Shown: positions 47,952 to 54,361 of the stretch, in pieces
Numbering within the stretch: the stretch's first letter is position 1
How the letters are laid out: the number at the start of each line of letters is the position of its first letter
Assembly: GCF_000013045.1 (NCBI RefSeq)
Contig: NC_007677.1
Coordinates: 1,612,001-1,676,000 of the forward strand
DNA: 64,000 nt
Source: Salinibacter ruber DSM 13855
GTDB taxonomy: Bacteria; Bacteroidota; Rhodothermia; Rhodothermales; Salinibacteraceae
Direction of reading: 5' to 3'
Made by a program: the position numbers and the translations under genes
Notes under the pieces: generated by a model
Told to the model about the DNA's origin: nothing
The model's input: the letters and a program-made list of their open reading frames with translations, nothing else
The model's database searches: none

Positions 47952-48614
47952 GTGGCTTCTATCGAACCGCCCTCGTCCGTTCCGCCTTTTGTGATCGCTG
48001 CTGTCCTGGTTCCCTTGCTCGTTCTGGGGGGGCTCGACACAAAAGCCCTGGGGCAGTCCGGGGGGCCGTCCCACGATTCATTGGCCCAGGCCCAGTCGGT
48101 GCAGTTCGGAGATGCGAAGCGCGCGCACTTGTGGCGGGTTGGGGCGTGGGGGGGCGTCAACGCGCTGGGGGGACTGGCGCTGGTTTGGGCGTCGTCCCGC
48201 TCGGCCCAGTCGACCCGATGGCACTTCGGGGCCATGTCGGCGGGGTGGGGGCTCGTGAACGCCGGCATTGCCGCCGGCGGGCTTCTGGCGTCCGGGCCCC
48301 CGCCGGCGGAACCCGGCCCCTTGCTGGCGGCGGAGCGGCAGTTTCACGACGTGCTGCTCCTTAACCTCGGACTGAACGTTGCGTACTCGGCCGTCGGGGC
48401 CACCATGCTCGGGGCGAGCCACTACGGCGTCGACAACGTCGGCCGGTGGCGCGGCTTCGGCACATCCCTCATCCTGCAGGGGGCTGGGCTGCTCGTGCTC
48501 GACGGCATCGCGTTCTGGGCCTCGCGCGGCCGCCTCGCGTCGCTCCTCGATGCGGGCGTGCAGTTGTCGATGCGCCCCGCGCCGACGGGCCTGGCCCTCA
48601 CGCTTCAGTTCTGA
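47952..48614 (+). CDS. Small multi-pass membrane protein of unknown function
   Basis: 220 residues from a GTG start, with about five hydrophobic segments: VIAAVLVPLLVLGGL (possibly a signal sequence), GAWGGVNALGGLALVWAS, AMSAGWGLVNAGIAAGGLLA, LLLNLGLNVAYSAVGATMLG and LILQGAGLLVLDGIAFWAS. The pattern WxxxNxxxG repeats in the first segments. It resembles a Bacteroidota family of small membrane proteins of unknown role. Its last ten bases overlap those of the convergent S9 peptidase gene. Confidence 0.6.
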   Translation: MASIEPPSSVPPFVIAAVLVPLLVLGGLDTKALGQSGGPSHDSLAQAQSVQFGDAKRAHLWRVGAWGGVNALGGLALVWASSRSAQSTRWHFGAMSAGWGLVNAGIAAGGLLASGPPPAEPGPLLAAERQFHDVLLLNLGLNVAYSAVGATMLGASHYGVDNVGRWRGFGTSLILQGAGLLVLDGIAFWASRGRLASLLDAGVQLSMRPAPTGLALTLQF

Positions 48615-51028
48615 GGCCGCTCCGGCCCGACACTCTCCTGAATGAGTTCGAAAATGCGCCGGTACTCGTCCGTCCAGCTCGAGGGCTCTTCGAACCCGTG
48701 GCCCTCCACCGGATAGATCGCCAGCTCCCAGTTCTCCTTGCCGAGCTCGATGAGGCGCTGGGTGAGCCGGAAGATGTCCTGCGGCTGCACGTTCGTGTCG
48801 ACGAGGCCGTGGGGCATCAGGAGCGGGTCCTCCAGCCCCTCCGCGTGGTAGATGGGGGAGGAGCGGGCGTAGGCGAGCGAGTCGGTTTGCGGGGTGTTAA
48901 GGATGTTGGACGTGTAGACGTCGTTGTAGTGGGCCCAGTCGGTAACCGAACGGAGCGCGGCCCCGCCGCCGAAGTGCTCCGGTTCGGTGAAGAGGGCCAT
49001 CAGGGTCATGAAGCCGCCGTACGAGCCGCCGTAGATGAACCGACGCTCGGCGGGAATGCCGTAGGTGTCCCCCACCCACTTGGCGGCGTCGACGTAGTCC
49101 TGCAGGTCGCGCCCCCCCATGTGGCGGTAGACGGCCGTGCGCCAGTCGCGCCCGTAGCCCGCCGACCCGCGGTAGTCCACGTCGACCACCGTGTAGCCGA
49201 GGTCCGTGAGCATGTTGTGGAACATGTACTCGCGGAAGTACGGGGGAAAGTCTTTGAGGACGTTTTGCAGATAGCCGGCGCCGTGGACGAAGAAAACGGC
49301 CGCGCCGTTCGGATTGTCGGGCCGAAAGACGTGGGCGGGCACCTCCACCCCGTCCGAGGCCTCAAAGCGGGTGAGTTCCGGCATGCGCCAATCGTACGCG
49401 GCCCACTCGTCGGTGGGGGACTCGGTGATGCGGACCGGGTCCGCGTCCGCCGTGGCGTCTTTGAGATAGAGGTCGGCGGGCTGGTTGGTGGTGGAATAGA
49501 GCGTGGCGAGGCGAGTCCCGTCGGGACTCAGGACCGCGTCGTGGGTGCCCGTCATCTGGGTGAGGCGGGTGATGTCGCCGCCGTCGGCGGGCATTCGCTC
49601 CACATGTTGCTGGTGCGGCGAGTGCCGGTTGGTGGTCAGCGTCCACGTCGAGCCGTCCTGCGACAGCCGCGCGTCGAGCACCTCAAAGTCCCCGCTCGTG
49701 AGTTGGGTGGTCTCGCCGGTTTCGACATCGACGGTGTAGAGGTGGCTGTAGCCGGTGGCCTCGCTCTGAAAGTAAAAGTGCTCCCCGTCGGGCATCCACC
49801 CCACGTTCCCGGGCCCGCCGTATGCGCTGATGCCGGGCCCCCCAATCCAGGCCGTGTCGTGCTGCCGATCGAGCACCGTCAGGTCGCCTGTTTCGGGGTC
49901 GAGACGGGCGATCCACCGGTCCTTGTTGTTGTCCGCCCGTACCACGAGAACCCCGTGGTCTCCGTCCGCGCTCCAGTAGGGCCCGTAGCTGTAGAGGGCC
50001 CGCTTCGCCTCGCTGGAATCAAGCTCTGCGCCCTGCTCCTGCCGGTAGGCCGGCACGTCGTAGGCACCGGGGAGCTGGTGCAGATTGACCGCAATCGTCG
50101 TGTCCCGTTTCAGGTCCTGCACGTGCAGCGCAAAGTCGCCGGGCGGGATGCCAACCTTGGGCCGGGCGCGCCGTACGTCGGCCTGGCCCGATTCCGTGAC
50201 GTAATCAATGACCTGCGTGGGGTCGGCGGCGTCCGGTTGGGACTGCTGCGCGATGGTCACGAACCGCTCGGTCGGATCCATGCGAAGGGCACTCACCTCG
50301 GCGTCTCCGGTGTAGAAGGGGGGCGGCGGGTCGTCGGCCTCGCGGTCTCGCTCTCGCGCTTCGTCGGCCTGCTCTTCCTCCTCGTTTCGCTCGCGGAGGG
50401 TCTCGAAGAGCTCCAGTTGCTGTTCTTCGAGGAACCGCTCGCGGGGGGACGGCGCGCCTTCTTGCGGTTCGCGCCCGGACTGCACGTTGGTCAATTGCCG
50501 AATCTGGCCGGTGCTGAGGTGGACAGAAAACAGGTTGTCGTCTCGCTCGAACAGGACCCGGTCCTCCTCCAGGCCGAACCGCGGATTGCCTTCGCGGGCC
50601 GGGGTGTCGGTGAGCCGCGTCTGGGTGTCCGTCTCGCGGTTGTAGAGGTACAGGTCGCCGTCGGCGGCGTAGACCTTCCGGGAAAAGTCGTCGGTGTAGA
50701 CGTGCTCGCCATGGTGCCAGCCGTCGAACGTGGGGGGGTTGGACCGTCGCTCCGCCGGGGACACTTTTTGGGGGGCGCCGCCGCTGCGCGACACTTTGTA
50801 GAGCGAATCACTGGGAAAATCCCCGCCTGGGTTCCAGTTGAAATAGAGGGCCTGTCCACTTTCGTGCCAGCGTGCATTGGTCGGCCAGTCGCCGATCCAC
50901 GTCTCGGGTGCCTGCATGATTTGCTCAACCGTGAGCGACGAGGTGCGCTCGGCGGGCTGTCCCTGCGCTGGGCGCAGGGGGAGAAGAAGAACGGAGAGAG
51001 CGAGGAGAAGAGAGGAAAAGCGAGTCAT
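48605..51028 (-). CDS. Prolyl-oligopeptidase-type S9 serine peptidase, exported
   Basis: 807 residues. A signal peptide (SLLLALSVLLLPLRPAQGQ) precedes a beta-propeller of ~500 residues with WD-like repeats, then an alpha/beta-hydrolase domain. The catalytic Ser is in YGGSYGGFMTL (GxSxG), and the catalytic His probably in PVEGHGFEEP. The Asp is likely in PHGLVDTNVQP. This is the layout of dipeptidyl-peptidase IV/acyl-aminoacyl peptidases, which trim peptides in the periplasm. A region near residues 195-230 is unusually charged (EEEEQADEARERDREADD). A decayed copy of its first ~55 codons lies at about 53413-53520. Start ATG 51028. Confidence 0.93.
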   Translation of the reverse strand: MTRFSSLLLALSVLLLPLRPAQGQPAERTSSLTVEQIMQAPETWIGDWPTNARWHESGQALYFNWNPGGDFPSDSLYKVSRSGGAPQKVSPAERRSNPPTFDGWHHGEHVYTDDFSRKVYAADGDLYLYNRETDTQTRLTDTPAREGNPRFGLEEDRVLFERDDNLFSVHLSTGQIRQLTNVQSGREPQEGAPSPRERFLEEQQLELFETLRERNEEEEQADEARERDREADDPPPPFYTGDAEVSALRMDPTERFVTIAQQSQPDAADPTQVIDYVTESGQADVRRARPKVGIPPGDFALHVQDLKRDTTIAVNLHQLPGAYDVPAYRQEQGAELDSSEAKRALYSYGPYWSADGDHGVLVVRADNNKDRWIARLDPETGDLTVLDRQHDTAWIGGPGISAYGGPGNVGWMPDGEHFYFQSEATGYSHLYTVDVETGETTQLTSGDFEVLDARLSQDGSTWTLTTNRHSPHQQHVERMPADGGDITRLTQMTGTHDAVLSPDGTRLATLYSTTNQPADLYLKDATADADPVRITESPTDEWAAYDWRMPELTRFEASDGVEVPAHVFRPDNPNGAAVFFVHGAGYLQNVLKDFPPYFREYMFHNMLTDLGYTVVDVDYRGSAGYGRDWRTAVYRHMGGRDLQDYVDAAKWVGDTYGIPAERRFIYGGSYGGFMTLMALFTEPEHFGGGAALRSVTDWAHYNDVYTSNILNTPQTDSLAYARSSPIYHAEGLEDPLLMPHGLVDTNVQPQDIFRLTQRLIELGKENWELAIYPVEGHGFEEPSSWTDEYRRIFELIQESVGPERPQN

Positions 51029-51458
51029 AATCGAAGTACGCTTGGAATCGAGGATGTCACCCCGTAGCATAACGGCTGTCGGACCCAATGTCGATGGGGG
51101 TGCCCCGTGTAATGCTGTTATTGCATAGCCGACTTTTTGGACAACTGGTCGCCCGCAAGGGCTTCGTGTAGGCAAGCGTGTACACTCCCGTCCGGGTCAC
51201 TCGCAGTCGACACACTGTCATCCTCTCGCTGGGTCCCGGCGGACCCATTGTTGCTTCGATGCGGGTCCGTATCGAAGTACGGCCCGGGCAACCGCATTGG
51301 GAGATCGGTTCTCGCCCACACGACGGTGAGGCCTCTCCGACGCGGTACACACTCTCGCGGGCACGACTCCCTCTGTGTACACCGTTCCGGAAAAGTGTGG
51401 ACGTCGCCGTCCCCGACAGGGACACACGGAGAACGCTCGTGGCGGGGGCACGTCCCCA
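51029..51458. other. Intergenic region upstream of the S9 peptidase
   Basis: 430 bases between the S9 start and the stop of the upstream arylsulfotransferase-like gene, both minus strand. A short inverted repeat AATGC...GCATA lies at about 51111-51128. Open frames are present on both strands but are not acidic and have no family resemblance. No gene is supported. Confidence 0.4.
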
Positions 51459-52811
51459 CTATGGCACAGCGGACGTATTCCCCGACGAACACGCCCACGC
51501 GTCAACCTGCTGCCGTGTGAGATTGAGTCGGGTGGCCTTTGTAACCACGGGCACCTGGCGTGCGTCGTAGGGCGGATGAACCCATTCCCAAACCGTTTGG
51601 CCTGTGGAATCGACCTCCACAACCCGCCCCGCCTGCGCCTCAGTCAGCAGCATGTTGCCATTCGGCATGCGTTGAAATTTGCCCCGAACATCCGTGTAGA
51701 AAGGGTCCGAGGCGGACGTGGGGAATCGGATCTCCATCGAGTCGGTGTGGGGCTGCATGGCCACGATTCGGCTCCCCCCGAGCATCGTCCCCCGTTCGGT
51801 AAAGTCTTCGTTGTTGTCGAAGACGCCAATCCAGCCGTCTCCGACGAAATCGGGATCGTGCTGTTGGATGAAGGGCGCTGAGGCATGCCACTTGGTCTCC
51901 TTCGTGTCGGGGTCGAGGACAAAGACGAGGTGCGGTTCCCGAAGCGAAACCAAGAGGTCGCCGGCGTCGAAGAGGGGGTATTCGTCAGCCATCCTGGGGG
52001 AGAGCGGCTCCACGTCGTTGAGGTGCAGCAGGTCTTTTGTCCCGGGGCCGTCCGTGCCGGCCTCCGGCTGGTTGACCTTGACTGCGTACCGCTCTAGGTC
52101 GTTCGCGTAGAGAACGTCGAGCACATTAATGTTTTGCAGCAGGTCTCCGTTTTCGCCCACATGCAGTAACCTCTCGATCCACACCGACTCGTCGAGTCCG
52201 GAATATCCGTTGGGGTGGGCCGTGCTCGTCTGACGGGGCCGCCGGCTCGTTCCTGGAATCCAAAACGTACCGTCGTGTGCCTGCGCAATCGAGTGGTGGT
52301 TTCCCTCCGCCAAGCGCCACTGGATCTGCCCGCACGCGTCCAGCCGCACGGTACCGACACGGGAGAGATTGACGAGGAGATCTCCGTCTGGGGTGACATG
52401 GGACCCGTGCAGGGCCCGAACCTCGGGGTATGTCCAACGCAGGTCGAGTGAGTCGGGAAAGAGTGACCCCTTATCGACGGACCACTGGTGAACCACCTGC
52501 CCCGTGCGGTCAATGAGCCTCACGCCGGCCGACCACGTGTCCTTCGTCTGCCACGTAGACGTGATGGCCGTGAGTCCGGGCTGAATGCGGCTCGAATCTA
52601 CAGTTCGGGCGCCAGAACGATCGTACACGCGATCAGCGAGGGGAGTGGGCCGTTCCGACCAGTACGTTCTCAGGGTCGTGGCCTGGTTTGAGGCCTGTTC
52701 CAACACCTCGTTGGGAGCCCACCGGTGCCACCGAGTGGAAAATCCGAGAAGAAATGCGATGAGGGCGACGGAAATGACGAAGGAGAGCTTCGCAAAATGA
52801 GAGGATCGCAT
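51459..52811 (-). CDS. Arylsulfotransferase (ASST)-like protein, membrane anchored
   Basis: 450 residues. A membrane helix near the start (FVISVALIAFLLGFSTRW) anchors a beta-propeller domain with repeated strands such as LIDRTGQVVHQWSVDKG, LRWTYPEVRALHGSHVTPDGDLLVN (in parts), SIAQAHDGTFWIPG and LHLNDVEPLSPRMADEYPLFDAGDLLVS, also in parts. The HSxxxxxDG and NDVEPL patterns match the family, whose enzymes transfer sulfate between phenols. The catalytic His is not certain, so binding-only roles remain possible. Starts ATG 52811; a hairpin GGCGTGGC/GCCACGCC at 52845-52867 lies just before it. Confidence 0.75.
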   Translation of the reverse strand: MRSSHFAKLSFVISVALIAFLLGFSTRWHRWAPNEVLEQASNQATTLRTYWSERPTPLADRVYDRSGARTVDSSRIQPGLTAITSTWQTKDTWSAGVRLIDRTGQVVHQWSVDKGSLFPDSLDLRWTYPEVRALHGSHVTPDGDLLVNLSRVGTVRLDACGQIQWRLAEGNHHSIAQAHDGTFWIPGTSRRPRQTSTAHPNGYSGLDESVWIERLLHVGENGDLLQNINVLDVLYANDLERYAVKVNQPEAGTDGPGTKDLLHLNDVEPLSPRMADEYPLFDAGDLLVSLREPHLVFVLDPDTKETKWHASAPFIQQHDPDFVGDGWIGVFDNNEDFTERGTMLGGSRIVAMQPHTDSMEIRFPTSASDPFYTDVRGKFQRMPNGNMLLTEAQAGRVVEVDSTGQTVWEWVHPPYDARQVPVVTKATRLNLTRQQVDAWACSSGNTSAVP

Positions 52812-53803
52812 CTCGGGCCGAAAACAGTTCTACGAACGGAGGGGGGCGTGGCAGAAGGGGCCACGCCGGACACCGAAAAGGGGAGGAGGGGGCTTTTCGA
52901 GCCGCTCCTCCAGCTTGGTCACTTCTGGAGAGGATGCCGGGGCGGGCAGACGGAACCAGAGAATGTACAGGGGGTAGGCGGTTTGTCTACGGGCAAAAGG
53001 CAGTAGCGGAGCGTCTAACGGCTCAGGTTATGCGGGGGCAAATCCGGGAGCTTCGATCCGCAGGCGGGAAGGGAAGCGCGTCGCCTTCCGCATGATGTCG
53101 TCGGTATGATACAGTGTGTACCGGTATGCCGCAATTCTGTACCGAACCCATGGGTCGCACGTCCGTCGGGCCGGCCGGCAGGCCCAACCGATCGTAGACG
53201 GTACCAATCGTAGAGGATGGCTGGTCGGAGGCGCTACCCACCCCCCGCCGTGTCCGCGAAGTTGAGGCTTCCGTGTCGTCGTCGACCGGGGTGCCAAATG
53301 GCGTGCGGTTCGTACGGGCTGCCCTGCTGTCGAGCCCGTCAGTGTGCCCAAGCCCCACCCAGAGAGAAAAGCTCCACACACGGACCGGAGGACAGCACAG
53401 AAAGTGCTGTCTGTGCCACTGCGCGTCGGTCGGGCGGTCGCCGATCCATGTCTGAGGCACCGGCCCGATGCGTTCGGCCGCAAGCGATGCGGTGCGCTCG
53501 GCGGACGGGCCCTCCACGGCCGGTGGACCCGGGAAAGAGGACGAGCAAAGGTGGAATGCAGGGCATGCGTTCACAAAGAAGTGGGCCGGCATGTCGGGTT
53601 CCCAAATCGGCGGGTCGGAATCCATTGTCAATCCTGCCGGCACGCACAATCTCCACACAAACCGAGTTGAAAAGTGCACGACTCATCCAAATCATGATGG
53701 GGGTATTCGTCCAGGAAGTGTGGACGGACTGATCCCCACCCTGGACATTCACGGGCGTCCAGTGTTTGAACGATCAGTCGCTTCCGGAACCGACCGAAGG
53801 TAC
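52812..53803. other. 992-base region without an intact gene, holding an S9-peptidase remnant
   Basis: This stretch between the ASST-like gene and the YopX-like gene contains a hairpin at 52845-52867 and a degraded peptidase fragment (53413-53520). The rest of the minus frame after the fragment (to 53030) stays open but resembles nothing. Codon use is less GC-biased than in the neighbours, with more mixed third positions. It looks like a place where genes have been lost and gained. Confidence 0.5.
53413..53520 (-). pseudogene. Remnant of an S9-peptidase gene start (duplicate of the 48605-51028 gene)
   Basis: The minus-strand translation here contains AERTASLAAERIGPVPQTWIGDRPTDAQWH in pieces. 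This matches residues 26-55 of the intact S9 peptidase 2.4 kb away, with 19 of 30 positions identical when aligned by eye, including ERT-SL and TWIGD-PT-A-WH. After the final WH the similarity stops, and no propeller or catalytic domain follows. The signal peptide before it is not preserved either. This is a truncated, decayed relative. Confidence 0.7.
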
Positions 53804-54361
53804 ATGCCAGCTCCAGAATTTCGTGTGTGGGACGGAGATGAAATGATTTATGTCAACGACAGCGCCGTCTGGTCGCTCAAGATCGAGGACTCTTCGGATT
53901 GGACCCTTCACCGCAAGACCCGGCTCCACTGCCGGGAGTCTCCGGACACGAGCCTCATGCAACACATTGGACTGGCCGATGCCGAGGGGAAGCAGATCTT
54001 CGACGGCGACATCCTGCAGGATGGGGACGGGGCGGTCGCGATGGTCCGCTGGGCGTCGGACGCGGGGGGATACGTCCTTCTACGAGAAAACGGCAATCCC
54101 GTCGGGCTCTCCGAGGCCAACATTCAGAACGGGCCCTGGCGCGTTGCGGGCAATCTCCACGAAACCCCGAACAGGATCGACCCGGACCTGAGCCGACTTC
54201 TGAACCGCCTCCGAGAGTATACCGGCGAGGTGGAGTGTCCGATGTGTGGCGGGACCGAGTTTGAGGCGGGCGGCACCCCGGAAGACCGTCAGGGCCCTAT
54301 CGCGGTTCACTGCGTGCGCTGTCACCACGTTATGTTGTTTCACGACGATGTCCTCCGGTAG
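53804..54361 (+). CDS. YopX-family phage-type protein with C-terminal zinc ribbon
   Basis: 185 residues. Residues ~5-125 match the YopX fold known from phage SPbeta and many prophages: FRVWDGDEMIYVND at the start, MQHIGLADAEGKQIFDGDIL (the G.D..G..IF.GDI core) and WRVAGNLHETPNR near the end. Residues ~140-185 add a putative zinc ribbon with CPMC and CVRC pairs about 30 residues apart, not part of the usual ~130-residue YopX. Function is unknown for the family. No other phage gene is adjacent, so it is a lone gene of likely phage origin next to a pseudogene. The ATG at 53804 gives the YopX start; upstream codons to 53468 run antisense to the remnant. Confidence 0.8.
   Translation: MPAPEFRVWDGDEMIYVNDSAVWSLKIEDSSDWTLHRKTRLHCRESPDTSLMQHIGLADAEGKQIFDGDILQDGDGAVAMVRWASDAGGYVLLRENGNPVGLSEANIQNGPWRVAGNLHETPNRIDPDLSRLLNRLREYTGEVECPMCGGTEFEAGGTPEDRQGPIAVHCVRCHHVMLFHDDVLR

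Follow-up and report, generated by a model that had tools for sequence, protein, structure and literature searches.

A YopX-family gene of the halophilic bacterium Salinibacter ruber DSM 13855 encodes a protein in which a YopX domain is joined to a C-terminal tail with four cysteines that likely forms a zinc ribbon, and this gene is under purifying selection. We modestly favor the reading that a phage YopX was captured once, is joined to a likely zinc ribbon and has been maintained by the host. The structural and evolutionary part of this explanation is well supported. The gene lies in a window of 64,000 nucleotides, which is the whole stretch of DNA analyzed here, and coordinates without a genome label refer to that window.

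Gene limits and the YopX domain

The features at the gene itself are the following:
53665 to 53705, plus strand: conserved upstream block of the YopX gene, about 40 bp, 95% identical to the genus genome G002
53667 to 53695, plus strand: promoter-like TTGAAA-17-AATCAT, inside the conserved block
53804 to 54361, plus strand: gene of the YopX-zinc-ribbon protein, 185 aa, ATG start, based on Pfam, orthologues and dN/dS
53816 to 54178, plus strand: YopX domain, residues 5-125, based on PF09643 (107.6 bits) and Foldseek matches to solved structures
54179 to 54358, plus strand: helix and four-Cys likely zinc ribbon, residues 126-185 (C145, C148, C170, C173), based on the AlphaFold2 model and a profile match to a 77-aa family

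The earlier note had placed the gene at 53413-54361; the YopX gene does lie inside this span, and its true coding sequence is 53804-54361. The start was set at 53804 on three grounds: the frame of the 97% identical orthologue (genome G005) contains only 195 codons, being already shut 10 codons before the ATG; three species share this ATG and its surroundings; and similarity to YopX sets in at residue 5. The whole open reading frame at 53468-54361 was rejected as the gene, since its upstream part is closed in G005, overlaps the scar of an S9 peptidase gene (see below) and is without YopX homology. The stretch 53413-53803 holds no coding part for the YopX-zinc-ribbon protein. Most of the surrounding upstream DNA is about 50-75% identical to G002, in contrast to the 95% of the block at 53665-53705, and this 40-bp block was found in three genus genomes, only at the YopX locus.

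Membership of the YopX family, as first proposed, was confirmed by PF09643, which matches residues 5-125 with 107.6 bits (E 5.8e-31, profile positions 1-127 of 128) against a gathering cut-off of 22.4 bits. This is the single YopX in the whole 3.59 Mb, two-contig genome. An AlphaFold2 model calculated from an alignment of 72 YopX proteins has a confident core at approximately residues 51-120. A Foldseek search of this model against the PDB returned five matches at E <= 0.001, namely 2p84, 2i2l (YopX), 2ox7 (two chains) and 2qyz, all at E <= 2.3e-4, and these solved YopX-family structures are its sole significant PDB fold matches. Against BFVD, 23 matches at E <= 0.001 were obtained, mostly named YopX.

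No established function of YopX was found in the literature searched. One paper credits the phage protein with regulating the life cycle of temperate phages (PMC9377139), and another calls it, by name, a potential Yersinia virulence factor (PMC10530707); in both papers phage yopX is taken for Yersinia outer protein X, a name mix-up with the yopX of SPbeta. In viral and prophage loci, the neighbors of YopX include SSB, MazG, RecU, ERF, dUTPase and DNA methyltransferases, from which we infer that YopX may be an early-region accessory protein of nucleic-acid metabolism. PADLOC gave no defense-family match for the Salinibacter YopX protein.

Orthologues, selection and the surrounding locus

Among the 13 genus genomes compared, intact orthologues were identified in two others, with 97% (G005) and 84% (G002) identity. 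The copy in G001 is broken, retaining residues 2-64 with two stops, plus residues 156-184, and the nine further genomes have no orthologue. No orthologue outside the genus turned up in the searched collections, and all four copies, including the broken one, occupy the same locus.

The gene is under purifying selection. In the two more diverged comparisons, dN/dS lies at 0.18-0.22 over the full protein and at 0.14-0.19 over the tail; dS among the three intact species reaches 0.40, and these estimates derive from three intact sequences with few changes and one genome per species. The excess of synonymous changes between the present genome (G000) and G002 has p = 5.5e-9 (p = 5.7e-5 for the tail alone) and holds under a more lenient neutral expectation, and for the G000/G005 pair alone it is non-significant in the YopX half; each p value comes from a simple binomial test on one sequence pair and is indicative. 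The dN/dS of about 0.2 and the conserved 40-bp block argue that the gene is being maintained and is not prophage debris in decay, in agreement with the earlier suggestion that this YopX is kept by the host. Its decay in G001 indicates that the gene is dispensable.

Three further features, all upstream of the YopX gene, record the history of the site:
48605 to 51175, minus strand: S9 peptidase open reading frame, source family of the scar (Pfam Peptidase_S9, 3e-45)
51459 to 52811, minus strand: arylsulfotransferase-like gene (ASST), based on Pfam PF14269 (3.5e-34) and synteny
53413 to 53514, minus strand: remnant (scar) of an S9 peptidase N-terminus, outside the YopX gene

The remnant of a peptidase start had been read from the sequence before this analysis, and it was recovered as 34 aa with 59% identity to the S9 peptidase (E 3e-12). 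A matching scar is present at the G005 locus and, in a shorter form, at the G002 locus. The S9 peptidase probably starts some 50 codons into the open reading frame as listed, and most genus relatives match from residue ~34-51 onward. A conserved core of nucleotidyltransferase, aminotransferase and deaminase genes stands beside all four YopX copies. An S9 peptidase is encoded somewhere in 10 of the 13 genus genomes; S9 and YopX adjoin the deaminase core only in the four-genome clade, and ASST does so in three of these four. In the three genomes with an intact YopX, ASST lies between S9 and YopX and the S9-start scar marks the old junction, whereas in G001 the S9 start directly adjoins the YopX remnant with no ASST between them. 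Six further genus genomes have the deaminase with neither ASST nor YopX beside it, and also with no S9 there, except for a stretch in G006 with a weak identity of 29%.

The clade-limited order of S9, ASST and YopX, together with the scar and the broken G001 copy, therefore points to a rearranged site. The data fit one gain of YopX before the four genomes diverged and one loss, so that, of the repeated gain and loss that had been suggested, the rearranging site stands with a single event of each kind and the repeated gains do not. The GC content is ~0.58-0.65 across ~50.8-54.0 kb, against 0.65-0.73 in the flanks. The isolation of the gene from phage genes was also borne out: the neighbors that were tested are ordinary chromosomal genes (S9 peptidase, arylsulfotransferase-like, deaminase), and no tRNA lies within 40-64 kb of the window. 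A prophage remnant with more phage genes was considered and rejected, none being found nearby.

The C-terminal tail and its relatives

About 50 extra residues with CPMC and CVRC had been described; the cysteines are indeed paired as CPMC...CVRC, in an extension of 60 residues. In the AlphaFold2 model, a helix (residues 127-140) is followed by three strands (153-156, 166-170 and 176-179) laid out like a zinc ribbon, with pLDDT values of ~70-80, and the proposed zinc ribbon is thus likely, at moderate confidence. C145, C148, C170 and C173 are invariant in all three intact orthologues, so that the expected conservation of the four cysteines in relatives holds within the genus; it does not extend to YopX proteins elsewhere. 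When the ribbon was modeled alone, the pLDDT was 66.5 and the fold search gave no significant match. Zinc ribbons from translation and transcription factors head the list, none of them better than E 0.06, and this search was set aside as an uninformative guide to identity.

The best relative of the tail is a separate 77-aa zinc-ribbon protein, which is present in 10 of the 13 genus genomes and is encoded in this genome at G000:C1:2163291-2163521. Its gene has conserved chromosomal neighbors at the loci examined, among them one that we take to be a photolyase/cryptochrome-like gene. A relative within the 77-aa family passes just the generic MJ0042 CXXC model and no other named family. The tail and the 77-aa protein have in common a helix and then CPxC...(I/V)xVxCxxC(G/H)(H/Y)V(L/M)xF; the 77-aa protein is stand-alone with a longer loop between the Cys pairs, whereas the YopX tail has H for G after the second pair. 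Alignment of the tail with the 77-aa family by hhalign gave 96.4% (E 1e-9, a single comparison), and pairwise BLASTP gave E 0.001. The top six among 30 zinc-ribbon open reading frames scored against the tail (five distinct genes) belong to the 77-aa family, and none of 2000 Cys-preserving shuffles reached the score of the best tail/77-aa pair. Ordinary zinc ribbons score up to 27, compared with 29-43 for the top members of the 77-aa family, and some members fall below ordinary ribbons. Because zinc ribbons are alike and ordinary ones score close to the 77-aa family, shared descent of the tail and this family is probable on sequence grounds and stops short of proof.

These relatives bear on the possibility that the protein is a host regulator, acting on host transcription or RNA metabolism, for example on its neighbors or together with the 77-aa protein, with no anti-phage role. 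Such a role would suit the origin of the nearest tail relatives from a chromosomal gene with conserved neighbors and the translation and transcription factor ribbons among the best fold matches, but these matches are non-significant, and the narrow species range and the loss in G001 speak against a core cellular role, which leaves a host regulator unlikely.

No curated family claims the tail, as the ECs_2282 CxxC, Lar (restriction alleviation) and general zinc-ribbon models all remain under their cut-offs. The tail scores 29.2 bits (E 6.2e-7) against NF047912 ECs_2282_CxxC, where the cut-off is 37, 17.7 bits (E 0.0032) against TIGR03655 Lar, where it is 39.6, and 13.4 bits (E 0.09) against PF14354 Lar, where it is 28.6; phrog_599, a Lar-like family, is matched at E 0.17. 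Membership of Lar or ECs_2282 was rejected on these scores. Both are small CPxCG...CxxC zinc ribbons, and their sub-threshold similarity to the tail is what would favor an anti-restriction or anti-defense cargo, in which a leftover phage accessory (moron) gene with a Lar-like or ECs_2282-like tail would shield mobile DNA from restriction, to the benefit of the incoming DNA. However, what is shared is mostly the spacing of CPxCG...CxxC, and the Lar and ECs_2282 models are also weakly matched by an ordinary zinc ribbon from a chromosome of the genus. With no mobile element around the gene and vertical retention in three species, we regard this cargo role as distinctly improbable.

The module had been described as unlike ordinary YopX proteins, and a survey of 221 YopX-like open reading frames, drawn from 195 loci (viral, phage, phylum and GTDB), agrees with this: among the matches listed, 0 of 221 have the Salinibacter-type tail. 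The survey loci were picked for their resemblance to an alignment with the Salinibacter protein at its head, so that rarer fusions elsewhere may be missed. A single one of the 221, again among the matches listed, has a different C-terminal Cys module (L084:2366-2872 on the viral contig IMGVR_UViG_3300005613_000128), in which YopX carries an independent CKHW...CEYC tail. A tree built from 217 sequences places the Salinibacter proteins among viral and prophage YopX, on an isolated branch of their own that has support. Within the class, YopX is a rare gene, present in 6 of 245 genomes. A close phage source was sought and rejected: viral contigs (queried both with the protein itself and with alignments of the family), phage and plasmid records and 394 phylum genomes yielded nothing but distant matches beyond the genus, no phage or plasmid match covers 80% of the Salinibacter protein, and tail-only searches of viral contigs and phage records returned nothing significant. 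One match at G109:C10 (locus L010, E 8.8e-4) is probably spurious, since the opposite strand reads as a long Cys-containing protein, which presumably resembles excinuclease. Judged by these comparisons, the Salinibacter protein appears to stand outside any described YopX-ribbon group, none having been found.

Origin, possible role and comparison with known YopX proteins

In the explanation that we modestly favor, a YopX-family early-region accessory gene of a phage would have been inserted into the chromosome in a single event, next to the deaminase, in the ancestor of the four-genome clade. The protein kept today joins YopX to a helix and a likely four-Cys ribbon, probably of the same kind as the genus zinc-ribbon protein, and the fusion may have taken place in the host or in the phage. 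The ribbon would bind zinc and anchor the protein to DNA, to RNA or to an enzyme complex acting on nucleic acids, and the YopX beta-barrel would make the functional contact. The host may benefit from a protein that interferes with phage or mobile DNA as it enters, or modulates it; this phage-interference role, taken by itself, is plausible, if rather unlikely. That the bacterium lastingly recruited YopX through gaining a copy of its own zinc-ribbon domain, giving a cellular and selected YopX, is a tentative and somewhat doubtful proposal. Inert prophage debris, an old and functionless YopX fragment open by chance, would suit the rearranged lower-GC stretch beside a true gene remnant and the break in G001, but this already disfavored reading is very improbable against copies that are intact in three species at a dS reaching 0.40, a dN/dS of about 0.2 and conservation of both the cysteines and the upstream block.

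The YopX family is widespread among phages and prophages and has solved structures, and a selected non-phage version with a ribbon offers a tractable case in which to establish what is bound and who benefits. If host recruitment is true, it may provide a handle on the role of the whole phage family, for example in interference with phage early DNA metabolism.

The reference members of the family (PF09643, PHROG 98) are SPbeta YopX of B. subtilis (2i2l), ORF041 of phage 37 (2p84), EF1440 (2ox7) and CTC02137 (2qyz). The Salinibacter protein has in common with this family the full-length domain, the fold and the residues R7, Q53, G56, D59, G68-D69, G116-N117 and E120. It is found outside any recognisable phage, unlike the phage or prophage setting typical of YopX, a context that lies outside the sequence definition of the family. 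YopX family proteins typically end ~3-14 residues past the GNxYE motif, whereas the Salinibacter protein continues for 65 more residues with the likely zinc ribbon.
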